From a virus, in IMG/VR virus record IMGVR_UViG_3300036668_000492, positions 1-20,033 of that record: DNA of 20,033 bases; one strand, given 5' to 3'. The notes below the pieces were generated by a model. The model was not told the DNA's origin. It saw only the letters and a list, made by a program, of their open reading frames with translations, and searched no databases. The position numbers and the translations under genes were made by a program. Position 1 is the first letter of the stretch, and every line of letters starts with the position of its first letter. Of the stretch, positions 6,574 through 20,033 are shown piece by piece.

Positions 6574-6838
6574 CGCGCACCTCACCGCAGATCTCGCTTC
6601 CTGCTGTGACAGCTTCGGGCACGCTCGTGCCGTTCACGTGCTGCCACTCGGCAAGCTCGGAGAGTTTGAAGCGCACCATCCGACCAATGCGGTAATGCGG
6701 GATGCGCATCTTGGTGCGTTGCCGCGCATTGGTCAGGTAGTACATCGGAAGGTTCATGGTGTAGGCCGCTTCGCGAGCATCGACGAACGACTCCGGAACC
6801 AACCGGGTCAGGTTGGAATTGGGCTGTGCGATATTCAT
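6566..6838 (-). CDS. Helix-turn-helix DNA-binding protein (excisionase/MerR-like, 90 aa)
   Basis: A 90-residue protein starting at 6838, with a GGAGG ribosome binding site eight bases upstream. Residues 18-64 (VDAREAAYTMNLPMYYLTN, then RIPHYRIGRMVRFKLSELAEW) match the HTH_17/excisionase-like winged-helix pattern: recognition helix, a short basic wing with an R-x-G-R-x-V-R-F run, and a closing helix. Such proteins bind DNA as small regulators, directionality factors or origin-binding helpers. Its place directly before the primase-helicase, with an 8-base overlap, and after the nuclease with a 4-base overlap, suggests a role in replication initiation or in controlling this operon, but that is inference. 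Confidence 0.75.
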   Translation of the reverse strand: MNIAQPNSNLTRLVPESFVDAREAAYTMNLPMYYLTNARQRTKMRIPHYRIGRMVRFKLSELAEWQHVNGTSVPEAVTAGSEICGEVRDE

Positions 6839-7572
6839 GGGGTAGTCCTCCAGCAACGATCTGCCCACGCGCAGAACTTGCATTCGAAATGGGTGGAATC
6901 GGTGAACGAGCGCGGTAGCAGATCGCAAGCCTCACTGGCGGTGATCACGCGTGCAGCGCGGTCCGACATGCGTTGCGCCAGTCCTGCGTCGAATGGAATC
7001 AGTTCGGCATATATCTCCATCGTGTCGGCGTTGACGGCCGTAAACAGCGCCGGATGCTCGTGCAGTTCGAGGTAGCTTTGGTACAGTGCGATCTGCGCGG
7101 CATAGATGGGTTTGGAAACCGCGAGCTTGCGTTTCTCGACGTCGCGCCAGGACTTGGCGCCGAGGCATTTGTTCTCCCAAAGTGATGGGTAGGCAAAGCC
7201 ATCGGGGCCGCTAATCAGTACGCCGTCGACGTGACCACGCAGTCGGCCACCGGCCACCGAGAAACCAAATTGCTGACCATTGGCATCTCCGGTCTTGAGG
7301 TTAAAACCGGCCATGCGCAGCCAGCGGATCACCATGTCTTCTGTCAGATGTCCGCGCTCAAAGATGCGCAGCAGTCGCCCCGAGAAACCCTTGCCATGAT
7401 CGACTGCTGCATGGACGTACTCGTATTGCAGTTGGCGCTCGCACGCCGCACCCAGACGCGAAGCACCTAGGTACTCGCGCGGCGGTGTTGCGTCCCGCTC
7501 GGCTTCCAGCTCAAGATCGAACAGTTCCTGCAGCCGGCCCGAGAGACTGGCCGACGAATTGAAATCGATCAT
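6835..7572 (-). CDS. PD-(D/E)XK nuclease of the Cas4/RecB family with likely Fe-S cluster
   Basis: A 245-residue nuclease. The catalytic residues are H76-E79 (GHLTED), D116 in GHVDGV, and E133/K135 in LWENK, followed by the RecB-family YAAQIALYQ helix at 157-165. Four cysteines, C44 in AACERQ and C231, C234 and C240 in ECKFCAWADRC, are spaced as in Cas4 and AddB, where one N-terminal and three C-terminal cysteines hold a 4Fe-4S cluster. It probably acts as an exonuclease making single-strand ends for the adjacent annealing/recombination proteins. The start at 7572 has a GGGAGA upstream and overlaps the DUF6511 stop by four bases (ATGA). Confidence 0.88.
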   Translation of the reverse strand: MIDFNSSASLSGRLQELFDLELEAERDATPPREYLGASRLGAACERQLQYEYVHAAVDHGKGFSGRLLRIFERGHLTEDMVIRWLRMAGFNLKTGDANGQQFGFSVAGGRLRGHVDGVLISGPDGFAYPSLWENKCLGAKSWRDVEKRKLAVSKPIYAAQIALYQSYLELHEHPALFTAVNADTMEIYAELIPFDAGLAQRMSDRAARVITASEACDLLPRSFTDSTHFECKFCAWADRCWRTTP

Positions 7573-8072
7573 CGTGTGGTCTCCCATGGCAAGTCATCCT
7601 CCATGTCCGCGAACGGGCTCTCCTGTGCGGGTGGAACCAACTCGCGGATGGGGTCACTGACGGGTGTCGTGCCGGGCATGCGCACCGGCGGATACTTGGT
7701 GCGTTCATGCTGCGCGGCCATCTCATCGACGTAGGCCGTGACGATGGCCTCGATCACTGACAGCGCCTCCGCTTCGGAGTAAGCCCCAAGGGGCTTGTCG
7801 AAACCGATAGCACCGGCCGCTTCACCGAAGAATTTGAGGCACATGCGCATGGCGGATTTTTCCAGCGGCGTGGCATCAACCATGGCAGCCTCCGGTGGCA
7901 ACCCGTCGTCCCGTGCGCGTGACCAGGAGCCGTACATCTTGTGAAACGCGTTCTGGCAGCGACGTGAGCAGAACACCCAGTCGATCGGGTATCGGCGCGG
8001 GTCGCCCACCTTGTGCCGATTCTCGGTGTGACCATAACCGCGCGCTTCGCGTGAGCAGACCCAACATTTCAT
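7569..8072 (-). CDS. DUF6511 zinc-ribbon phage protein
   Basis: A 167-residue protein. Residues 1-50 carry a zinc-binding motif with C3/C6 and C35/C39 around a VGDPRRYPIDWVFCSRRCQ block, which I recognise as DUF6511. Residues 80-125 form a helix-rich segment (MCLKFFGEAAGAIGF and a following Ala/Glu-rich helix). The tail is proline-rich and acidic, ending MEDDLPWETTR. That type of acidic tip is common in proteins that bind single-strand binding or replication proteins, though this is only an analogy. It sits between the putative SSB and the Cas4-like nuclease and overlaps the latter by four bases, so a role in DNA metabolism is likely. The family has no established function. Confidence 0.82.
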   Translation of the reverse strand: MKCWVCSREARGYGHTENRHKVGDPRRYPIDWVFCSRRCQNAFHKMYGSWSRARDDGLPPEAAMVDATPLEKSAMRMCLKFFGEAAGAIGFDKPLGAYSEAEALSVIEAIVTAYVDEMAAQHERTKYPPVRMPGTTPVSDPIRELVPPAQESPFADMEDDLPWETTR

Positions 8073-10597: not shown

Positions 10598-11097
10598 TCG
10601 TGGTTCTCCTGTACGAGGGCGAGGCGGTAGCTGGCCTTGCCGGGTTTGACGGTGCGGGCTTTGGCGAACGTTTCCTTGAGGGACGAAGGCCAGGCGTTGA
10701 AGCGAGATTCGGAAACCGAGTAGTCGGTGTCGATGTAGTCACCGACCTTGTCGCCAGCGACAGCGATGCGTTGAGCGATCTCGGCCAGTTGGGTTTGATC
10801 CCAGGACACCCGCTTGGGCACATCAACCGTGATGCGCAGCGGGCCATCGGAAATGTGGCAGACACCGAAATCACGACCGTTGGCCTGGCGGGCAGCCGAT
10901 GCCTGTTCGGCATAGCGCTGGTCGAGGGCTGCGCTGAGGCGTTCCAGAACACCCTTGATGGCCGACTGCAGCGTGAGCAGGTTGATGTGTGCTTCCTGCA
11001 ACTGCGCAGGCGGCAGCGCGGCAATCTGGGCAACGCTCATGTCAGCTAGGGGTGCGGCGTGATCGAACGCGACGCTGGTGAGAAGGGAGTCGTTCAT
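10594..11097 (-). CDS. Hypothetical phage protein (167 aa)
   Basis: A 167-residue protein beginning MNDSLLTSVAFDHAAPLADM, with a GGAGGT ribosome binding site seven bases before the ATG at 11097. Residues 18-70 form a long Ala/Gln/Leu-rich helix pair likely to be coiled coil (IAALPPAQLQEAHINLLTLQ and following). Residues 78-95 form a beta hairpin (VCHISDGPLRITVDVPKRV), and the rest is helical and basic, including SWDQTQLAEIAQRIAVAGDKV. The sequence is of the kind often seen beside phage HTH genes at the head of replication operons. I cannot assign a function. It overlaps both neighbours by four bases. Confidence 0.72.
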   Translation of the reverse strand: MNDSLLTSVAFDHAAPLADMSVAQIAALPPAQLQEAHINLLTLQSAIKGVLERLSAALDQRYAEQASAARQANGRDFGVCHISDGPLRITVDVPKRVSWDQTQLAEIAQRIAVAGDKVGDYIDTDYSVSESRFNAWPSSLKETFAKARTVKPGKASYRLALVQENHE

Positions 11098-11378
11098 GCG
11101 CGACCTCCGTCTTTTGCTACCCGCTCGGACGTCGAGATGTGCAAGGCGCAGCGTTCGTACTCGGTGATCGCCTCCAGCGGATAGGTCACCCGCTTGGAGA
11201 GCTTCAGATACTTCGGGCCACGGCCCTCGGTACGCCAACGTTGCAGCGTCTTGGGACTGACGCCCCAGCGCTGAGCCAGCTCGGTTTCGGAAAGTACGCG
11301 CCGCTCGTGCGGTGCCGCCGGTGCAGGCATCGCCGTGAGGGCAGATGCACTGCGATTTGCTGTTGTCGATTGCAGCAT
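11094..11378 (-). CDS. Helix-turn-helix protein (AlpA/excisionase-like), first gene of the replication operon
   Basis: A 94-residue protein. The start at 11378 is preferred because GAAAGGGG precedes it at correct spacing; a TTG five codons earlier lies inside that site. Residues 28-75 (RRVLSETELAQRWGVSPKT, a LQRWRTEGRGPKYLKLSKRV wing, and a YPLEAITEYER helix) are a clear HTH_17 domain as in AlpA and phage excisionases. The first 25 residues are Ala/Thr/Ser-rich and probably unstructured. Being first in the operon and adjacent to the repeat-rich intergenic region, it may regulate this operon or act as a directionality factor. Its stop overlaps the next start by four bases. Confidence 0.8.
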   Translation of the reverse strand: MLQSTTANRSASALTAMPAPAAPHERRVLSETELAQRWGVSPKTLQRWRTEGRGPKYLKLSKRVTYPLEAITEYERCALHISTSERVAKDGGRA

Positions 11379-11617
11379 TGGTACCCCTTTCAATTAGGTT
11401 GGGAACAACGCTTGCAGTGTCGAAAACGGGTGGCGAACTGTTAATGGACTGACTGGCGAACTGCCCTGAAACTTTCAGTTCGCCAATGGCAATCACGGCT
11501 TGCATACAAGTGCTAAATTGGCACCAATGAGCCGAACAAATGGCGCAGTTGTCCGTGAAAGTGGCGCTGTTTGTAAAACTGCGCCATAATGGCGCTACTT
11601 ACAGCGGAAACAGCGCC
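11379..11617. promoter_or_regulatory. Divergent control region between the replication operon and the Fic gene
   Basis: A gap of 239 bases between two divergent genes. It carries eight related 10-mers starting TGGCG (or their complement), listed in a separate entry, and a -10-like CATAAT at 11585-11590 for the plus strand that is flanked on both sides by repeats. I find no convincing -35 for either direction, so the promoters are not resolved. The replication operon must start somewhere in this gap or within the Fic gene. Confidence 0.6.
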
Positions 11618-11618
11618 A
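11431..11618. repeat. Array of eight TGGCG-type 10-mers (putative operators)
   Basis: TGGCGAACTG occurs at 11431-11440 and 11454-11463, and its exact complement CAGTTCGCCA at 11476-11485. TGGCGCAGTT at 11541-11550 has its exact complement at 11577-11586. TGGCGCTGTT at 11562-11571 has its exact complement AACAGCGCCA at 11609-11618, which overlaps the first base of the Fic start codon. A further TGGCGCTACT is at 11590-11599. Copies come in direct and inverted orientation with spacings of about 13 to 23 bases inside two clusters. The pattern fits repeated binding sites for a dimeric HTH protein, most simply the N-terminal domain of the Fic protein itself. Confidence 0.7.
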
Positions 11619-12961
11619 TGGTCAATGAACAGCAGATTTTGAATACCATCACCACAGCAAACGCTGGAGTGACGTTGGCCGAGTTATTGGCACAGCATCC
11701 GGTACTGGCCCGCCGCACCGCCCAACGCTGGATCAGTCAATGGATTGCCCAAGGGTGTCTGCGCGCGCAGGGCGAAGGCCGGGCGCGGCGTTACTTTGCC
11801 CAAGCCGATTTACAAGAAGATGCGCTTCCATCGTGGGCCGCCGCTTTGCCTCTTTCGCCCGACAGCAAAGACATCCTGGCCTATGTCGAACAACCCTTGT
11901 CAGGGCGCAAGCCGGTGGGGTATCAGCAGGAATTTTTGCAAAGCTATCAGCCAGGTATCACCTGGTACCTGCCACTGACACTACGTCGGCAACTGCATAA
12001 GATGGGTCAAACCGTGAAGGCCAGCGAGCCTGCCGGCACCTACAGCCGCGATATCTTGAGCCGATTGTTGATCGACCTGTCATGGGCATCGAGCCACCTA
12101 GAGGGCAATACCTACTCCCGGCTGGATACGCGCGAATTGATTGAGCGCGGCAAAGCAGCGCAGGGGAAAGGCGCTATTGAAACGCAGATGATCTTGAACC
12201 ATAAGTCGGCCATTGAGCTGCTGGTAGAGAACATCGCTGTCGTTGGCTTTGACCGCTTTACGCTCATGAATCTGCACAGCGCCTTAGCAGAAAACTTGCT
12301 GCCCAATCCAGCCGATGAAGGCCGCATCCGCCAGCATGCCGTAGACATTGGACTGAGTGTTTTTCGGCCACTGTCTGTACCGGCTCAGATTGAAGCCGCC
12401 TTTGATTTGATGCTGAATAAAGTCAATCAGATCACAGACCCGTTTGAGCAATCCTTTTTCATGATGGTGCACCTGCCGTATTTGCAGCCATTTGCCGACA
12501 TCAACAAACGGACCTCACGCCTGGCAGCCAATTTGCCCTTGTTTCGTGCCAACTTGTGTCCTTTGACTTTTCTGGACGTGCCTGAGCCAGCCTATGCACG
12601 AGCCGTACTTGGGGTATATGAAATGACCCGGGTAGAGTTGCTGCGCGATCTGTTCGTTTGGGCTTACGAGAGATCGACGCAGGAGTATCTGGCCATCAAG
12701 CAAGATCTGGCAGAACCTGACCCACTGCGGTTGGCGTGGCGCGATATCATCAAGCAGACCATCCGTGAAGTCGTCATGCATCCGGATCAGGACGCCATGA
12801 CCTTGATCATTGCAGCCGTGGACTCCGGTATCCCGCAAGGCGATCAAACGGATGTGCGTGCGCTAATTGCAGACGAGCTGCGGCGGTTGCATGAGGGCGT
12901 ACTGGCGCGCTACGGGTTGCGCCCCTCGGAATTTACCCGCTGGAAGTCGCACCAAAACTGA
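11618..12961 (+). CDS. Fic domain protein with N-terminal HTH and degenerate Fic motif
   Basis: A 447-residue protein. Residues 1-62 form a winged-helix-like DNA-binding domain (HPVLARRTAQRWISQWIAQG, then a GEGRARRYF wing). Residues 158-163 read SSHLEG, matching the (S/T)xxxE(G/N) inhibitory helix of self-inhibited Fic proteins. The Fic core motif is at 290-301, reading QPFADINKRTSR where the canonical form is HPFxDGNGRxxR. The NKR part resembles Doc, but the catalytic histidine is glutamine (CAG). Fic proteins transfer AMP or other groups to target proteins; here that activity may be lost or altered. The start at 11618 follows a weak GGAAA and lies inside a repeat; an in-frame ATG at 11540 would put most repeats in coding sequence. 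Its 3' end faces the next gene with 23 bases between. Confidence 0.88.
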   Translation: MVNEQQILNTITTANAGVTLAELLAQHPVLARRTAQRWISQWIAQGCLRAQGEGRARRYFAQADLQEDALPSWAAALPLSPDSKDILAYVEQPLSGRKPVGYQQEFLQSYQPGITWYLPLTLRRQLHKMGQTVKASEPAGTYSRDILSRLLIDLSWASSHLEGNTYSRLDTRELIERGKAAQGKGAIETQMILNHKSAIELLVENIAVVGFDRFTLMNLHSALAENLLPNPADEGRIRQHAVDIGLSVFRPLSVPAQIEAAFDLMLNKVNQITDPFEQSFFMMVHLPYLQPFADINKRTSRLAANLPLFRANLCPLTFLDVPEPAYARAVLGVYEMTRVELLRDLFVWAYERSTQEYLAIKQDLAEPDPLRLAWRDIIKQTIREVVMHPDQDAMTLIIAAVDSGIPQGDQTDVRALIADELRRLHEGVLARYGLRPSEFTRWKSHQN

Positions 12962-12984: not shown

Positions 12985-13953
12985 TTATTTTTGGTGCAAG
13001 CCAACTGATGCGCACGGCATGACATAAGTTCCGGCGCGCCGGTTGGTTTTTACCAAGGCTTTGTATGCGCGCAGAGGGGCCTCATACTTCGGGTTCCCCT
13101 TATTTTTCGTTTTCACCTTGAAGACGTCGATGGGCTTGTCACTCGATAGCCCGGCACGCGACATGACAGCGTGGGCTTCCTGCTCCTGCCCGCCGAAATG
13201 CCACAACGCGCTGAATACGGCGGCGTGCGCATCGGACAATGCGATCGGTCCATGTTGATCGCCAGGCAGGTGAACCCAACGAAAGTCCGCCGAGAACGAA
13301 CCGTTGACCGCTTCGGTTGTGTCCAACGCAACATCATCGACAGAAGCCCCAGGAGCCACAAAGCTGAGATTGCCACCATACAGCGTGAATCGCTCCTCCA
13401 GCGGGAGCCAGGTCGCAAGGCCGGCGACAGGATCGTGATCGATGTCCCGAAGTGGTTTCGGTGTGATCAACCAGGGAAGTGACATGCCTCTCGTTCGCCC
13501 GATCAGGGACCGCTGCTGTAACACCTGATCCAGAGTCCGCGCAAGGACGACGGGACTGCGCTGATATGCCCCTAAGCGCCACATGTCGCTGACAACCGCA
13601 ACCGGCCCCTGTTGTGCAGGGATGTCGAGAGCGCCACGCAGCTTGCGGATCAGCCAGTCGGCATCCAGCATCCAGGCGCGCGTGTCCGACTTGTCGATGG
13701 ATACCGGCCCACAGTCCTGGCAGTTGCACAGGAGGCCGGTGCTGGCCTGAACCACCGAACCACGCTGTAACTGGCAATAGGGACACAGGATAAAGCGCAC
13801 GTCGAACTTGGCCGGTTTGACGGCCTTGAGCTCCACCAGCAGCGCCAGCGCGTCTCTTTCAGCGTCCGACAGTGCCGACTCTATGGTTGGCCCGTCGCGC
13901 CCGAAGAAGCTGCACGCCAGCGCCCATGCCGACGCATTGCCACTGGCCATCAT
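12985..13953 (-). CDS. Unknown protein with a zinc-ribbon motif (322 aa), second gene of a two-gene module
   Basis: A 322-residue protein I do not recognise. Residues 53-82 hold a zinc ribbon: CPYC near 57-60, then CNCQDCG about 17 residues later. Residues 90-140 are helical with a WLIRKLRGALDIP segment. Residues 140-215 include a LITPKPLRDIDHDPVAGLATWLPLEERF stretch. The C-terminal third contains SDAHAAVFSALWHFGGQEQEAHAVM, then a Lys-rich loop (FKVKTKNKGNPKYEAPLRAYKALVKTNRRAGTY) that could touch nucleic acid. No nuclease or ATPase motif is seen. It begins at an ATG overlapping the 411-aa gene stop by four bases, with no clear ribosome site, so translation is probably coupled. Confidence 0.75.
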   Translation of the reverse strand: MMASGNASAWALACSFFGRDGPTIESALSDAERDALALLVELKAVKPAKFDVRFILCPYCQLQRGSVVQASTGLLCNCQDCGPVSIDKSDTRAWMLDADWLIRKLRGALDIPAQQGPVAVVSDMWRLGAYQRSPVVLARTLDQVLQQRSLIGRTRGMSLPWLITPKPLRDIDHDPVAGLATWLPLEERFTLYGGNLSFVAPGASVDDVALDTTEAVNGSFSADFRWVHLPGDQHGPIALSDAHAAVFSALWHFGGQEQEAHAVMSRAGLSSDKPIDVFKVKTKNKGNPKYEAPLRAYKALVKTNRRAGTYVMPCASVGLHQK

Positions 13954-15185
13954 TCACTGCGCTCATCGACGAGGTCGTTTAGGTTTCCAGCGCTATCCGC
14001 CTGCGGCGACAACACCTGCTTTTCCTGCAAGATGCCAATCTGCACCAGATAGCTCTCCAGCTGGGCGCGCAACTTTTCGTCGAACTTGTGCAGGTTCAGG
14101 CGGCCCCGGCGCGTCACTTCCACGGTCACCACCGGGCTGCGCTGTTTTCCGGGCGGCGGTGCGTAGTAGAGATTGATAGTGGCGGCGCTGACCAGCCAGT
14201 GGTGGACGAGCGGATTGTCCTGGGGGAACATCTCGGCAATCAGTTCGGTAACGCATTGATGTTCGCTGCTGGCCATGGCGGTGAATTCCACCTTGAGCTC
14301 GGTGTCGGGACTCATCAGCGTGAGTGATTTCACCTGCAATGCCACGAACCCGTCATTGATGGCCTCCTGCACCTGAAAGCCGAGTTTCAGCGAAGAAAGA
14401 TCGAGCGTCGGCGGCTTAATCCGCTGGGCGCTGACATTGACGCCTAGCAGATGTTCGGCGAAGGCTTGCGCCAGCATCTCATGGTACTTGGCGCCGCCGC
14501 GAATGATGGTGCGCGTCACGCCCGTGGTTTCGGAATACTCCAGCACCATGTGAATGTTCGGACTGCCGACGCGCCGCGTCAGAACCATGCCCTCAAATTC
14601 CAGCCGCAGCATGGCTAGGTCCTTGGCGTGTACCGTGACCAGTTGGGTGCCTTGTGCCCGGTCGAGAATGTGCGCTACGCACACCTCACCACAGCCGAGC
14701 TCGATTTTGTAGAACGCCTTGATTGCTTCGATGAACGCGTTCATCGAAGCATCGTCGCGGCGGATCGGCGGTTTTACGCCCAGATCGTGCTGCTGGGCCT
14801 GCTGGACGTGACTGTCGACATATTCGATTTCGGCCGCCTGCTCGAACAAGCCGGGATGATGGACAAACAACCAGAACGCACGATGTTGATCGCTCTGGCA
14901 AGCGATCAACCCCATCAAAGCGTCAGCGTGCCAGGAGCCGATCTGGAACATGGCCTGTTTGCCGCGCGGATGGGCAAGCTGGGTGCTCACGAGCAGCCCG
15001 GCCACGATTTTGTCGCGCACCGCAAGGTCGGTGCAATTCTGGACCGATTCGATCAACCGGGTAGTTGTGGAACTGTCGTCGGTCCAATCGAAATCGACTG
15101 GCAAGGCAAGACCATGGAGATCAAGGTAGGCACGCAATGTCGAATCCACGGGTAGGTCGAGGAGCACGTCAGCGTAAGTCTTCAT
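13950..15185 (-). CDS. Unknown protein (411 aa), first gene of a two-gene module
   Basis: A 411-residue protein I do not recognise. It has an AAGGA ribosome binding site nine bases upstream and a strong sigma70-type promoter 130 bases upstream. Residues 1-130 are mostly helical with several aromatic and histidine residues (FWLFVHHPGLF). Residues 165-230 look like a mixed alpha/beta domain (MNAFIEAIKAFYKIELGCGEV). From about 210 the sequence is strand-rich with repeated amphipathic patterns (LRLEFEGMVLTRRVGSPNI). The C-terminal part contains YYAPPPGKQRSPVVTVEVTRRGRLNLHKF. No enzyme motif, transmembrane helix or signal peptide is evident. It is coupled to the 322-aa zinc protein gene and divergent from the XRE/ImmA pair. 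Confidence 0.75.
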   Translation of the reverse strand: MKTYADVLLDLPVDSTLRAYLDLHGLALPVDFDWTDDSSTTTRLIESVQNCTDLAVRDKIVAGLLVSTQLAHPRGKQAMFQIGSWHADALMGLIACQSDQHRAFWLFVHHPGLFEQAAEIEYVDSHVQQAQQHDLGVKPPIRRDDASMNAFIEAIKAFYKIELGCGEVCVAHILDRAQGTQLVTVHAKDLAMLRLEFEGMVLTRRVGSPNIHMVLEYSETTGVTRTIIRGGAKYHEMLAQAFAEHLLGVNVSAQRIKPPTLDLSSLKLGFQVQEAINDGFVALQVKSLTLMSPDTELKVEFTAMASSEHQCVTELIAEMFPQDNPLVHHWLVSAATINLYYAPPPGKQRSPVVTVEVTRRGRLNLHKFDEKLRAQLESYLVQIGILQEKQVLSPQADSAGNLNDLVDERSE

Positions 15186-15314
15186 TTTTATTGATCCTTA
15201 TGTGCTGTCGTCGTAGGGCTCGATACCATGAAGCGGACGTGCTGCCGGCGGCGACTGAGTTACAAGAAAAACTACATATAGCGGCCACAAGTAAAGTGAA
15301 ACGATACAAGCGCA

Positions 15315-15342
15315 ATTCTACCCGCGCATTTCCGCTTGTCAA
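15315..15342 (-). promoter_or_regulatory. Sigma70-type promoter for the 411/322-aa operon
   Basis: On the minus strand a perfect -35 TTGACA (15342-15337) is followed after 16 bases by TAGAAT (15320-15315), five of six matches to the -10 consensus. Transcription would start near 15308, giving a leader of about 120 bases before the ATG at 15185. The -35 overlaps one copy of a TCAATCAA direct repeat. Confidence 0.65.
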
Positions 15343-15366: not shown

Positions 15367-15386
15367 TTGGATCTTTTTGCTATACT
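15358..15386 (+). promoter_or_regulatory. Extended -10 promoter for the XRE/ImmA genes
   Basis: TATACT at 15381-15386 is preceded by TGC, forming an extended -10, and by a weak -35-like TTCAAT at 15358-15363 (17-base spacing). Transcription would start near 15393, only about 13 bases before the ATG at 15406, so the mRNA leader is very short or translation begins at 15418. Confidence 0.55.
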
Positions 15387-15405: not shown

Positions 15406-15768
15406 ATGAGAACACCCATGCCATCTCCTTTTGGAATACGCCTGCGGGAGTTTCGGGAAACCAAGGGTCTGACGCTGCAACAGGTCGCCGACACCGTTGG
15501 CTGCACCAAGGCCTATGTCTGGGAACTGGAAATGCGCGAGGGTCAAAAGCCTACGGCAGAACGGCTGAACGCCATCGCCAAGACCCTCGGCGTCACCATT
15601 CAGGATCTGCTCGGTGAGCCCGTCGCCCCGATGCAAACCGCCACACCGACCGATGTTGCTTTTTTTCGTGAGTACGCTGGTATGAGCGAACCCGAGAAAG
15701 CCAAGTACCGCGAAGCAATGAAACTGATGTTCGGGTCAGCCCTAAAGCCCGACTCGGAGGGCTCTTGA
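15406..15768 (+). CDS. XRE-family HTH regulator (repressor-like)
   Basis: A 120-residue protein with an N-terminal HTH_3 domain at residues 9-68: FGIRLREFRETKGLTLQQVA, then DTVGCTKAYVWELEMREGQKPTAERLNAIAKTLG, then VTIQDLLGE. The C-terminal part (80-110) is a helical tail with MSEPEKAKYREAMKLMF, likely for dimerisation or for contact with the peptidase. It resembles ImmR-type repressors of mobile elements. The ATG at 15406 is used here; ATG at 15418 is an alternative with a GAGAA before it, and the short leader makes either possible. Its stop overlaps the TTG start of the ImmA/IrrE gene (TTGA), so the two are coupled. Confidence 0.85.
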   Translation: MRTPMPSPFGIRLREFRETKGLTLQQVADTVGCTKAYVWELEMREGQKPTAERLNAIAKTLGVTIQDLLGEPVAPMQTATPTDVAFFREYAGMSEPEKAKYREAMKLMFGSALKPDSEGS

Positions 15769-16688
15769 CCGTCGCGGGCGACCTGAACGCCTTCAAGGCC
15801 GCCGCCCGCATCCTGACCTGGCTTGGCGCGACCGGTCGGCTGACGCTGCCCATTGACCTCGATCTGGTAAGACAGATCCTGCCCGAGACCCCGTTTGGGC
15901 GGGGAAGCACCCTCAAGGCACCTGCTGACCTGACCTGGAACGCCAGCGAGGGCGCATTGGTGCGTAACCCCGACAATGAGAGTGATTGGGGAATTTTTGT
16001 GAACCCCAAGGCGCGGCCGGAACGTCGACGCTTTACGGTCGCCCATGAGCTTGGACATTTCATCCTGCACCGCGCCAGTCAGCCCAGTTTTCTGTGCGAC
16101 AAGGAAAGCGTCTACTCAGGCATCGACAATCTGAAGCAGATCGAGCGCGAGGCCGATGATTTCGCCAGCAACCTGCTGATGCCCGGCGACATGTTGCGGG
16201 ACCGGATCACCGGCAAGCGAATCGACTTCCATCTGATTGGCGCACTCGCCAAGGAATTCGGTGTGTCGCTCGAGTCAATGTCCATCCGCATCGTCAAATA
16301 CACCGAACAGCGTGCCGTGCTCGTGTACTGGGACCACGGTTTTCTTAAATACCAATGGCCAAGCGGTGATGCCCGCAAAACCCGCGTCCGTTTGCGCAAA
16401 ACTGGCGATCCGCAAGAGCCGTTGACTGGCACCCTAGCCGCCGATGACACCACCGAGCAGGAATGGGATGGTATCGATATGCCAGCGAAGGTCTGGTGCA
16501 CCAGCGAGGCCGATGAGATCACATTGCGGGAGTTGAAGCACACTTATACCAGCGGCAATCGTGTGTTGTCGCTGCTGATGCTGGAGTCTGCACCACCGCG
16601 AACCTGTTTTCGTAGTGGGTGGGAAGACGAGGAAACCCACGACACTTTCGATCGCTTTATCGACAACGGTCAATTGCCTGTGCGTTAG
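15765..16688 (+). CDS. ImmA/IrrE family metallo-endopeptidase
   Basis: A 307-residue protein with a TTG start, supported by a GGAGGG ribosome binding site and a four-base overlap with the regulator stop. The zinc protease motif HELGH is at 94-98 (AHELGHFILHRAS), and the third ligand region is EREADDFASNLLMP with E129. This is the ImmA/IrrE fold, whose members cut or inactivate a partner XRE repressor to induce phage or mobile element genes. Residues 170-307 are an extra C-terminal domain with no known match to me, containing DHGFLKYQWPSGDARKTR and an acidic end. Such extra domains may sense a signal. The pair XRE plus ImmA is likely the element's switch or a toxin-antitoxin-like unit. Confidence 0.9.
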   Translation: MTVAGDLNAFKAAARILTWLGATGRLTLPIDLDLVRQILPETPFGRGSTLKAPADLTWNASEGALVRNPDNESDWGIFVNPKARPERRRFTVAHELGHFILHRASQPSFLCDKESVYSGIDNLKQIEREADDFASNLLMPGDMLRDRITGKRIDFHLIGALAKEFGVSLESMSIRIVKYTEQRAVLVYWDHGFLKYQWPSGDARKTRVRLRKTGDPQEPLTGTLAADDTTEQEWDGIDMPAKVWCTSEADEITLRELKHTYTSGNRVLSLLMLESAPPRTCFRSGWEDEETHDTFDRFIDNGQLPVR

Positions 16689-16868: not shown

Positions 16869-17105
16869 ATGCCAATCATCGAATCACCCTTATCCATACG
16901 GCCGTCCACAGACGACATTTCCCCCCGCCAGCCACATAGAGAAATCGCCGAACTCCTTGCCACCGCCATCGTACGAGCGCGACTCAAGGGAGCCATAGCG
17001 TTGGAAGCAACACAAGAATGGCAAGACAGCGAAGTTTGTCTTGGCTTCTCTGGCGACCAGAGCGTTCATACAAACCCGTCTCAACCAGAAGGAGTTTTCG
17101 TATGA
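16869..17105 (+). CDS. Small protein of the integration cassette (78 aa)
   Basis: A 78-residue protein with a GGAG ribosome binding site nine bases upstream of the ATG at 16869. It has a Ser/Pro-rich first third, a helix with REIAELLATAIVRARLKGA, and a Thr/Gln/Ser-rich end. Similar short proteins stand before DUF2924 genes in phage integration cassettes, but no function is established. Its stop overlaps the DUF2924 start by four bases. The ribosome binding site lies in the loop of a possible 5-bp hairpin (TAGCG at 16842-16846 with CGCTA at 16861-16865). Confidence 0.65.
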   Translation: MPIIESPLSIRPSTDDISPRQPHREIAELLATAIVRARLKGAIALEATQEWQDSEVCLGFSGDQSVHTNPSQPEGVFV

Positions 17106-17572
17106 CAGCGCACGCAACCACCACAACCCCCATCGCCGCTCAACTGGCGCAATTACCCACGCTTCCCATGGAAAATCTCTGGGCGCTGTGGGACGATTTT
17201 TTTGATCGTCGCCCGGGCAACCATCACCGCACCTATCTGGAAAATCGCATCGCCTACAAGCTTCAAGAACGCGCCTTCGGCGGATTGCCTGGTGGCCTGC
17301 GGCGCAAATTGGAAAAGATTGGCGAGACGGGTGAAGTTCCCAACCAAAAACGCCGTAGTGAAAATCAGCTCGCTGTCGGCACCACCTTGGTCCGCGAATA
17401 CAACGGGATCGAGCACAGAGTTGTCATCAAGGAAGATGGCCGGTTCGAGTACCAGGGGCGCCCCTACAAAAGTCTGTCGGGCATTGCCAAGGCGATTACC
17501 GGCACCCAATGGTCTGGCCCCGTGTTTTTTGGGATTAAACCATCGTCTACAAGAAAAGGGAGCCGAGCATGA
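17102..17572 (+). CDS. DUF2924 domain protein
   Basis: A 156-residue protein with an AAGGAG ribosome binding site nine bases before the ATG at 17102. Residues 12-70 carry the DUF2924 hallmark: LAQLPTLPMENLWALWDDFF, then a RTYLENRIAYKLQERAFGG helix. Residues 100-150 contain a GTTLVREYNGIEHRVVI strand pair and a YKSLSGIAKAITGTQWSGPVFFG end typical of the family. DUF2924 proteins are found almost always next to serine recombinases in proteobacterial prophages, and are thought to assist integration or excision. The C terminus is basic (KPSSTRKGSRA), consistent with DNA binding. It overlaps the recombinase start by four bases. Confidence 0.9.
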   Translation: MTAHATTTTPIAAQLAQLPTLPMENLWALWDDFFDRRPGNHHRTYLENRIAYKLQERAFGGLPGGLRRKLEKIGETGEVPNQKRRSENQLAVGTTLVREYNGIEHRVVIKEDGRFEYQGRPYKSLSGIAKAITGTQWSGPVFFGIKPSSTRKGSRA

Positions 17573-19002
17573 AAAACCCAACCCCTGGCCAAACCAGCCT
17601 GACCCCAAAACGACGCTGTGCCATCTACACCCGCAAGTCCACCGATGAGGGTTTGGACCAGGAATACAACAGCCTGGAGGCTCAGCGCGACTCCGGGTTG
17701 GCATTCATTGCCAGCCAGCGGCACGAGGGCTGGATCGCCATCGACGATGGCTACGATGACGGCGGGTTTTCTGGTGGCAACACAAACCGCCCGGCCTTAA
17801 AGCGCCTGCTGGCCGATGTGGAGGACGGCAAGGTTGATGTCATCGTGGTCTACAAAATCGACCGTCTATCACGCTCGCTCTCGGACTTTGCTCAAATCGT
17901 CGATCTGTTTGACGCGCATGGCGTGACCTTCGTCTCTGTCACCCAGCAGTTCAACACCACCACCAGCATGGGCCGCTTGATGCTCAACGTGCTGCTGTCC
18001 TTTGCGCAGTTCGAGCGCGAGGTGACCGGTGAACGCATTCGCGACAAGATTGCCGCGAGCAAGGCCAAGGGGATGTGGATGGGCGGCGTGCCGCCGCTGG
18101 GCTACGACGTAAAAGACCGCAAGTTGGTGATCAACGAGCCGGAGGCTGAACTGGTCAGAGATATATTTTTGCGTTACGCCGAACACGGCTCGGCGGCTCG
18201 GCTGGTGCGAGAGCTTCAGATTGAAGGGCACACCACCAAGTCGTGGCAGACCCAGTCCGGGTCTTACCACCATGGCCGCACCATCGATCAGCAATTTCTC
18301 TTTGTGCTGCTGCGCAACCGGCTCTACCTTGGCGAGATCACGCACAAAAGGCAGGTCTTCGCGGGGCAGCACCAAGGTATTGTGAGCCAGCAACTCTGGG
18401 ATGCCGCGCACGTCATCATTGCCGAGCGCAAACGTGGGACGCGTGACCGCCACAACGAATCCCCGGCATTGTTGGCTGGACTGCTCTACGCACCGGATGG
18501 TCAGCGCATGTTGCCGACCTACACCCAGAAGAAAAACGGCAAGCGATATCACTACTACGTGCCCTATTTGGAAAAGCGGCAGACTGCGGGAGCCACCAAG
18601 AAGCCTGGCGTGGGTGGCATGGGCGCGTTACCTGCGGGGGAAATTGAAGCCACCGTGCTGGCGCAGGTACACCGCGTTTTGCAGACGCCGGAGATGGTCA
18701 TCGGCATCTGGCGCGCAAGCCTGTCACTCAAGGAACGGGGTGAGCTGGATGAACCGACGGTGGTAGTGGCCATGCGCCAGATCAGCACCGTTTGGGCGCA
18801 ACTGTTCCCAACCGAGCAGCACCGTCTCATGCGCTTGTTGATCGAGCGTGTCCAGCTGCATCACGATGGCTTGGATATTGTGTGGCGGGAAGACAGTTGG
18901 CATCGCTTCCGCCGCGAACTGGAGCAGCACCCCTTCGTTGCCGAGCAACGGGCCGCCATCGAAGAAAAGCAAAACGAAACGGTATGGGAGGCAAGCGCAT
19001 GA
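17569..19002 (+). CDS. Large serine recombinase (phage integrase)
   Basis: A 477-residue site-specific recombinase. The N-terminal resolvase domain carries catalytic S24 in YTRKSTDEG, then DDGGFSGGNTNRPALKRLL, and the KIDRLSRSL arginine cluster. A QFEREVTGERIRDKI helix leads into the recombinase domain at about 165-275 (ASKAKGMWMGGVPPLGYD). The expected zinc-ribbon region (LLAGLLYAPDGQRMLPTYTQK) has no cysteines. The C-terminal part has no long coiled coil and is shorter than in phiC31-type integrases. It cuts and joins attP and attB in the prophage. It is flanked by DUF2924 upstream and an accessory gene downstream, each with a four-base overlap. Confidence 0.95.
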   Translation: MKNPTPGQTSLTPKRRCAIYTRKSTDEGLDQEYNSLEAQRDSGLAFIASQRHEGWIAIDDGYDDGGFSGGNTNRPALKRLLADVEDGKVDVIVVYKIDRLSRSLSDFAQIVDLFDAHGVTFVSVTQQFNTTTSMGRLMLNVLLSFAQFEREVTGERIRDKIAASKAKGMWMGGVPPLGYDVKDRKLVINEPEAELVRDIFLRYAEHGSAARLVRELQIEGHTTKSWQTQSGSYHHGRTIDQQFLFVLLRNRLYLGEITHKRQVFAGQHQGIVSQQLWDAAHVIIAERKRGTRDRHNESPALLAGLLYAPDGQRMLPTYTQKKNGKRYHYYVPYLEKRQTAGATKKPGVGGMGALPAGEIEATVLAQVHRVLQTPEMVIGIWRASLSLKERGELDEPTVVVAMRQISTVWAQLFPTEQHRLMRLLIERVQLHHDGLDIVWREDSWHRFRRELEQHPFVAEQRAAIEEKQNETVWEASA

Positions 19003-19553
19003 GCCCCGAGAATTTGATGCGGCGGAGCGTGGAGGTAAAGCCGTCGGGCGCGCCACGTCAATACGAGGACTCAGGGCGCTCTGTGACGTTTGTGCCGCTA
19101 ACCATCAAGCGTCGGCATACCGCGAAGCTGCTGCTACCGCCACCGGGCTGCGAAGACGCGAGGATCACCGCCTCACTGGATTTGCCAATGATCCGTACCC
19201 TGGGCAAAGCGTTTTACTGGCAGAAGCTGCTCGACTCAGGTCAGGTGGCCAATGCCACCGAACTTGCCCGCCAACTCAAACTGGAATCCGGCTGGGTGGC
19301 CGAAGTGCTTCGCCTGACGCGACTGGCACCGGATATCGCGCAGGCCATCGTCGATGGTCGGCAGCCACGACACCTGAATTTGCATGCTGTGCGCGGGCGG
19401 CAGGCCGAGGTGCCGGTGAGTTGGGTGGCGCAAAGAGTGATTTTTGGATTCACAGCGTCGCATGGCCAGACAAGCCGTGAGAGATTTCCTGAATCTTCGC
19501 CTTGTAATACTCCAGCGCCATCTGAGCCAGCTCGTGAGGAAGGCGGCTTTTAA
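18999..19553 (+). CDS. Recombinase-associated protein, likely extended across the phage end
   Basis: A 184-residue protein that overlaps the recombinase stop by four bases (ATGA). The N-terminal 50 residues are rich in Arg, Lys and Pro (RRSVEVKPSGAPRQYEDSGR). Residues 60-140 contain an HTH-like unit with DSGQVANATELARQLKLESGW, a VLRLTRLAPDIAQAIVDGRQP helix and RHLNLHAVRG. This pattern is typical of proteins that follow DUF2924-linked serine recombinases and resembles ParB-type HTH segments. From about residue 152 on (after VIFGF), the reading frame continues into TASHGQTSRERFPESSP, which has no family character and is the complement of the neighbouring minus-strand gene. The normal stop may have been lost when the element integrated. 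Confidence 0.75.
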   Translation: MSPENLMRRSVEVKPSGAPRQYEDSGRSVTFVPLTIKRRHTAKLLLPPPGCEDARITASLDLPMIRTLGKAFYWQKLLDSGQVANATELARQLKLESGWVAEVLRLTRLAPDIAQAIVDGRQPRHLNLHAVRGRQAEVPVSWVAQRVIFGFTASHGQTSRERFPESSPCNTPAPSEPAREEGGF

Positions 19554-20025
19554 CTGGGCTCCCCATATGATTTTCCGGTGGAGGATACGTTACCCCTCGA
19601 CTTGTCACCGAAATCACTTCAAGCCGATCTGGGTGGAATTTGATCTCCAGATCGCCGTCATACACAAGGTTGTCGACTTGTCCCGAGCCATTAAAAACTC
19701 CCTTGTGAATGCGACCGCCGCCCGGGCCACCCGTAATTGTTAGGCCCCCTGACCGGTTGACCACGATCGCTTGAATCGTATGCTCGTCGGTGTTTCTTGC
19801 CTGTACGAGATAGCGCAGCAGGTCGTCTTCTTTGCGCCACCGATTTACCTCACTCAAATGCCGTTGAGATCCGCCGTCAGCATGGAGCTCCTTTTCCAGC
19901 TTGTTCCATGCGCGGTCAAGATAGTGCAGGAAGTCCTTCCAGGATTTTTCATAGCCGACCATGTCGGCGGCAGATTGCATCCGCAGGAGCGCCTCACGCG
20001 CCCAGGCAAGTTCGTTCACGTCCAT
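19450..20025 (-). CDS. Unknown protein, probably host gene beyond the phage boundary (may extend past the window edge)
   Basis: A protein of about 191 residues read from an ATG at 20025; the frame is still open at the window edge, so the true start may lie further right. It is a helical N-terminal half (MDVNELAWAREALLRMQSAA, then SWKDFLHYLDRAWNKLEKEL) followed by DDLLRYLVQARNTDEHTIQAI, which resembles a conserved motif of unnamed bacterial proteins. The C-terminal half is strand-rich (VDNLVYDGDLEIKFHPDRLE) and ends with HELAQMALEYYKAKIQEISH. I do not recognise a named family. Its last 104 bases lie antisense to the recombinase-associated gene. It reads well to its stop at 19450. Confidence 0.65.
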   Translation of the reverse strand: MDVNELAWAREALLRMQSAADMVGYEKSWKDFLHYLDRAWNKLEKELHADGGSQRHLSEVNRWRKEDDLLRYLVQARNTDEHTIQAIVVNRSGGLTITGGPGGGRIHKGVFNGSGQVDNLVYDGDLEIKFHPDRLEVISVTSRGVTYPPPENHMGSPVKSRLPHELAQMALEYYKAKIQEISHGLSGHATL

Positions 20026-20033
20026 CACACCCC

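Follow-up and report, generated by a model that had tools for sequence, protein, structure and literature searches.

A CapHP-like regulator pair and the divergent P411-P322 operon as a candidate lysogeny switch of a temperate phage family

The window, the whole 20,033-nucleotide stretch of viral DNA analysed here, carries two coupled genes, P411 and P322, divergent from a CapH-like repressor and a CapP-like metallopeptidase, and these four genes would represent the region that controls lysogeny in a temperate phage family. The best explanation found, to which an even chance is given, is that CapHP serves as a lysogeny switch and P411-P322 as a trans-acting early DNA-binding complex for lytic commitment. 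CapH would repress its own promoter and that of P411-P322 via an inverted pair of 18-bp operators. ssDNA originating from damage or infection would activate CapP, and CapH would be cleaved and P411-P322 switched on. Both products would then form one DNA-binding complex, acting in trans as an early induction effector, which would commit the prophage to leave lysogeny and start the surrounding integration and replication modules. If this is true, a protease switch known from immunity doubles as the phage's own lysogeny switch, and CapHP, a damage switch familiar mainly from defence, is tied to apparent phage lysogeny control. The fold common to RexA, RdgC and the kinetochore proteins CENP-N/L would also gain a new phage branch. 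Since the switch comprises two operator-like sites and a single output operon, it is directly testable.

P411 (411 aa; 13,950–15,185, minus strand) is the first gene of the operon and is preceded by a Shine-Dalgarno-like AAGGA, while P322 (322 aa; 12,985–13,953, minus strand) follows with an ATGA overlap. The initial annotation described two long, uninterrupted and translationally coupled reading frames with no known domain except a zinc ribbon, and both statements are upheld, the former by the lengths, the overlap and the conservation of the genes, the latter by Pfam, NCBIfam and PADLOC. Neither protein had a significant match in Pfam or NCBIfam, and the PADLOC scan of both returned no family at E ≤ 1; the sole match of P411 was phrog_37634, a family of unknown function. 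No match to either protein was obtained by tblastn in sequenced phages and only distant or partial ones in plasmids, a search of PDB sequences with the profiles of both gave no credible match, and no published description of the pair was found. Among 73 homologues of P322 the cysteines C57-C60 and C78-C81 are invariant or nearly so; they are missing in many distant versions, and the zinc site is therefore lineage-specific. On a plasmid of Eleftheria terrae (L180) P322 is annotated as intact and P411 is matched in fragments only, which suggests decay of P411.

Searching viral contigs with P411 yielded 31 loci; with profiles, 80 were recovered from genomes and 70 from viral contigs, and these sets overlap. 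Among 180 P411 loci, P322 adjoins P411 in 177, and a CapH match is present in 107 and a CapP match in 105. The reading frame of P411 is complete in 173 of the 180, the others being truncated at contig edges, together with one that contains a stop codon. Where a comparison with close relatives of the window was usable, NG86 dN/dS amounted to 0.07–0.14 for P411 and 0.12–0.21 for P322, one P322 comparison being saturated. Judging from these substitution patterns, both genes are under strong purifying selection, and nearly all relatives recovered have them intact. Relatives of P411 were detected in 8 of 369 genomes of the class to which genome G012 belongs and in at least 30 of 398 genomes sampled across Pseudomonadota, the latter being a lower bound because few candidates were scored per genome. 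The P322 partner was detected in most of the 30 sampled loci, with absences mainly at contig ends. The co-occurrence of the four genes is wide and extends down to about 20% identity, a distance at which the partner of P411 is still present and is twice fused with it in a single polypeptide of about 720 aa (L319, 556–2730; L321, 556–2721), directly divergent from the genes for DUF2924 and the serine recombinase. The profile of P322 was linked to those of the distant versions with E 2e-15 over 283 columns, and the homologues of the pair are neither structural nor lysis genes. Genome G012 contains a second copy of P411 with an in-frame TGA (C1, 1766392–1767269). Five loci (L047, L051, L077, L094, L098) are prophages of betaproteobacterial type in bins labelled Akkermansia, Bacteroidetes or Planctomycetota, and these are probably misbinned contigs.

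The XRE repressor (15,418–15,768, plus strand; Pfam HTH_3/HTH_31) matched the PADLOC capH profile with E 1.7e-23 over positions 3–98 of 103. The ImmA/IrrE (M78) metallopeptidase (15,765–16,688, plus strand; Peptidase_M78), which carries a HELGH motif and whose start overlaps the stop of capH, matched capP with E 5.9e-53 over positions 12–242 of 242. According to the starts of homologues and the local sequence, the ATG at 15,418 is the likely start of CapH, and that at 15,406 is also possible. These near full-length matches agree with the divergent XRE and ImmA genes and the regulated architecture proposed earlier. The CapH/CapP pair is reported as an ssDNA-activated protease with a repressor of adjacent operons (PMC13373217), and cleavage of CapH by CapP is stimulated by ssDNA in this family (PMC13373217, PMC10904395); by analogy, ssDNA-triggered cleavage of CapH may also be expected here. 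The regulators resemble CapH/CapP of CBASS in the near full-length profile matches, the single divergent regulated operon and the M78 motif. However, unlike in CBASS, the scanned ORFs of the neighbourhood include no CD-NTase, and PADLOC detected neither CD-NTase nor effector genes among the four module genes, a Fic gene and a gene for a 192-aa protein. The arrangement is also comparable to ImmR/ImmA of ICEBs1, CapHP being here apparently the prophage's own switch.

The module occupies a constant genomic position. Its constant neighbour, the gene for a DUF2924 protein (17,018–17,572, plus strand), is followed by that for a large serine recombinase (integrase; 17,569–19,002, plus strand), and on the other side the gene for an AlpA-like DNA-binding protein (11,094–11,393, minus strand), whose position is conserved in class A relatives and in distant prophages, is the first of a replication/recombination block downstream of P322. 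In class A, the window type, the order is recombinase, DUF2924, CapP, CapH, divergent P411-P322, AlpA, Sak4, Cas4-type exonuclease and primase. In class B, which comprises most betaproteobacterial relatives, the replication genes are found on the far side of the recombinase; P411-P322 is located at the edge of the provirus, and several viral records stop immediately behind P322. Since the pair is not upstream of replication genes in class B, a role in replication in cis does not fit and a role in trans is assumed. In class C, the Limnohabitans type, P411-P322 is divergent from DUF2924 without CapHP. Longer regions of distant prophages showed the backbone of the window type, with the slot between the DUF2924-recombinase and the AlpA-replication genes. 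An independent scan anchored on DUF2924 revealed that close clades have P411 wherever the slot falls inside the record, and that another clade has a divergent P411 (22–25% identity) with a divergent CapHP. The surveys anchored on P411 and on DUF2924 led to rejection of the view that P411-P322 is patchy cargo. Its presence in all DUF2924-recombinase prophages was rejected as well, because in 20 further DUF2924 loci, picked for having no listed P411, the slot was occupied by CI-S24, LexA-like, CapHP-like or unrecognised genes, one of the 20 carrying a very divergent P411. DUF2924 was found in 77 of the 398 sampled Pseudomonadota genomes, with P411 more often absent than present. The module was assigned by the initial annotation to an accessory spot, which has to be revised, as the pair sits in a fixed slot in the backbone of a large group of uncultured prophages. 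Its reading as defence or toxin-like cargo appears mostly wrong too, given the fixed slot, the lack of a PADLOC match and the retention of the pair in a clade without CapHP.

The strong promoter attributed earlier to P411 is indeed present (TTGACA-16-TAGAAT; 15,315–15,342, minus strand), with 11 of 12 consensus matches, and it is conserved in homologous intergenic regions. The repeat described between the divergent genes is real; its form is different, namely an inverted pair of an 18-bp operator-like element. One copy (15,369–15,386, plus strand) overlaps the −10 box of capH (TATACT), and the second, inverted one (15,290–15,307, minus strand) lies at the predicted transcript start of P411. 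The pattern read by eye from class B intergenic regions is GTATCTCGNNGCTWTACT. The inverted pair, about 80 bp apart, was found in 36 of 37 non-redundant intergenic regions including that of the window, beyond dinucleotide shuffles, and since the pattern was derived from some of the tested regions, those of the window type are the more independent test. At three mismatches or fewer, 18 class B loci of 17–21 kb contained the two sites only, with one extra site in L080. All 12 related prophage records (44–62 kb) had exactly two sites, at the capH and P411 promoters only. CapH may be the protein that binds this element; if CapHP is the switch, with P411-P322 as its sole mapped output besides itself, the pair should carry the signal in trans.

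Other recognised repressors are scarce in these elements. The 26 related records searched yielded no S24 repressor, and the CapHP-bearing ones usually have one HTH_3 match, the position of which is that of CapH where checked (G773, G775); a second match was present in G774, G776, G777, G780 and G785. In class C, neither HTH_3 nor S24 was detected in 6 of the 8 records searched (G787, G789, G790, G792–G794; 36–54 kb), and these records also lack CapHP, so that the argument from a missing repressor is not watertight. The P411-P322 loci of these six records are L132, L127, L128, L143, L124 and L136. The regulators of the 30 sampled Pseudomonadota loci were judged with home-made profiles, L296 from the longer region L329. 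A divergent XRE-ImmA pair was present in 14, a codirectional upstream ImmA in 4, a LexA-like S24 protein within the operon in 4 and a WYL protein in 2; in 2 others the fusion proteins are directly divergent from DUF2924-recombinase, and the remaining loci had no detected regulator or another arrangement. The regulator beside P411 is thus interchangeable between XRE-ImmA, LexA-like and WYL types. In relatives without P411 (L205–L207, the complete arrangement being read in L205 and L206), a CI-type S24 repressor is divergent from a protein of 229–251 aa. This protein has the C-terminal domain of P322 in common with the pair, its C-terminal 90 residues being matched by the distant P322 versions (hhalign E 7.5e-12). 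A wider proposal, held tentatively as one possibility, is that P411-P322 is a widespread unnamed phage regulator on the CENP-N/L-RdgC fold, which would execute induction for interchangeable damage sensors such as CapHP, LexA-like or WYL proteins.

The predicted structures are consistent with a function on DNA. The P411 model (pLDDT 85.6) gave Foldseek matches to CENP-N/Chl4 (E 7.6e-5) and RdgC (E 4.7e-4, prob 1.0), and viral RdgC-like proteins match it as well. The VIA Z was 9.9 for Chl4, 9.4 for CENP-N (P411 residues 59–258), 7.9 for RdgC (rmsd 6.2, 192 aligned) and 7.1 for CENP-L (211 aligned, over 118–394); with such moderate Z values and an rmsd of about 3–6 Å, this similarity is a statement at the level of fold only. 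P411 is accordingly predicted to be a DNA-binding protein of the RdgC/RexA/CENP-N/CENP-L fold. The P322 model (pLDDT 92.6) combines a winged-helix-like N-terminal part, which includes the C4 zinc ribbon, with an OmpR/ToxR-like C-terminal winged helix (Z ~7), both predicted folds being common ones. By analogy with these families, both proteins may be expected to bind DNA. The inner kinetochore proteins CENP-N/Chl4 and CENP-L/Iml3 are the best fold match of P411; however, they are eukaryotic centromere proteins with only about 4–8% identity to it, and common ancestry is only a possibility. The kinship of RexA, RdgC, IML3 and CHL4 has been published (PMC11077077; also PMC5095916, PMC4080450), and lambda RexA, which has this fold, biases the CI-Cro switch (PMC11077077). 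The top structural matches of P411 did not include RexA itself; a related fold may be indicated by the common similarity to RdgC and Iml3/Chl4, and both proteins are encoded beside the repressor in the immunity region. In contrast to RexA, which is cotranscribed with the repressor, P411 is divergent from it, and instead of RexB its partner is the winged-helix/zinc protein P322.

Alternatively, P411-P322 would be a regulated anti-phage or superinfection-exclusion pair, which CapHP derepresses in response to ssDNA of an invading phage and which then stops that phage, in the manner of RexA and RexB in lambda lysogens. This would agree with the reported location of CapHP and CapW (WYL) controllers beside defence operons (PMC13373217), with the fold common to RexA and RdgC, with the class B cassette at the provirus edge with its private operator-like pair, and with the type I methylase, DUF262-type and dGTPase genes in the neighbouring cargo of relatives. 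Nevertheless, the explanation is rather unlikely, as P411-P322 has no PADLOC match, its fixed slot and near-universal retention differ from patchy cargo, and a membrane-protein partner of RexB type is absent, P322 being a soluble winged-helix protein by its model. Moreover, all module contexts examined resemble a prophage or a satellite-type mobile element and thus offer no sign that the module occurs elsewhere. That defence loci are the best-known setting of CapHP, and that the fold match of P411 is structural only, count to some extent against lytic commitment as the task of the pair.

A recombination controller similar to RdgC is less probable still. P411-P322 would then coat or encircle DNA, limit RecA and, along with Sak4 and the exonuclease, direct how the induced phage replicates or recombines, which accords with the inhibition of RecA functions by RdgC (cited in PMC11077077), with the place of RdgC among the closest folds in PDB and viral libraries, and with the window-type operon preceding AlpA, Sak4, Cas4-type exonuclease and primase. 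However, P411 differs from RdgC in an extra N-terminal helical region and in being almost always paired with P322, and it has no relation to it by sequence (no match to PF04381 in Pfam; hhalign probability 0.1–0.2%). In addition, 20 of the 26 host genomes checked encode their own RdgC, and the winged-helix partner and the private operator-like pair suggest a regulatory role. Only a slim chance is given to P411-P322 being a recombination directionality factor for excision by the adjacent serine recombinase. Excision factors are normally induction-dependent and the pair is linked in most cases to DUF2924-recombinase, from which it diverges directly in some, but the same recombinase type and DUF2924 occur without P411 in L205–L207 and L365, and in L311 and L290 the pair, as read by eye, lies beside a tyrosine-type integrase. 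An early regulatory complex is the best reading, being favoured by the output logic, the slot, the CI partner that replaces the pair and contains a P322-like domain, and the precedent of RexA.

In some relatives the stretch beside CapP contains known defence-type genes, which encode a DUF262-type protein (PADLOC Orf5/HEC-06), a dGTPase or a type I methylase (L099, 1290–3125; L330, 8457–9815; L097, 6357–7853). A Wadjet assignment guessed by eye for a large ORF of L097 was unconfirmed by PADLOC. In L330 a Y-family DNA polymerase (IMS domain; 6766–7890) directly follows CapP. In the window, a Fic/DOC protein (PF02661, 5.8e-10; 11,540–12,961, plus strand) is encoded between P322 and AlpA and, being unmatched in the other loci of the 180, looks like window-specific cargo, while a 192-aa protein of phrog_23516, whose function is unknown, is encoded at the window end (19,450–20,028, minus strand). 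Distant P411-partner pairs, read by eye, adjoin a tyrosine-type integrase in L311/L324 and L262/L290, with AlpA-like and primase-like genes in L324, which suggests that these are satellite elements.
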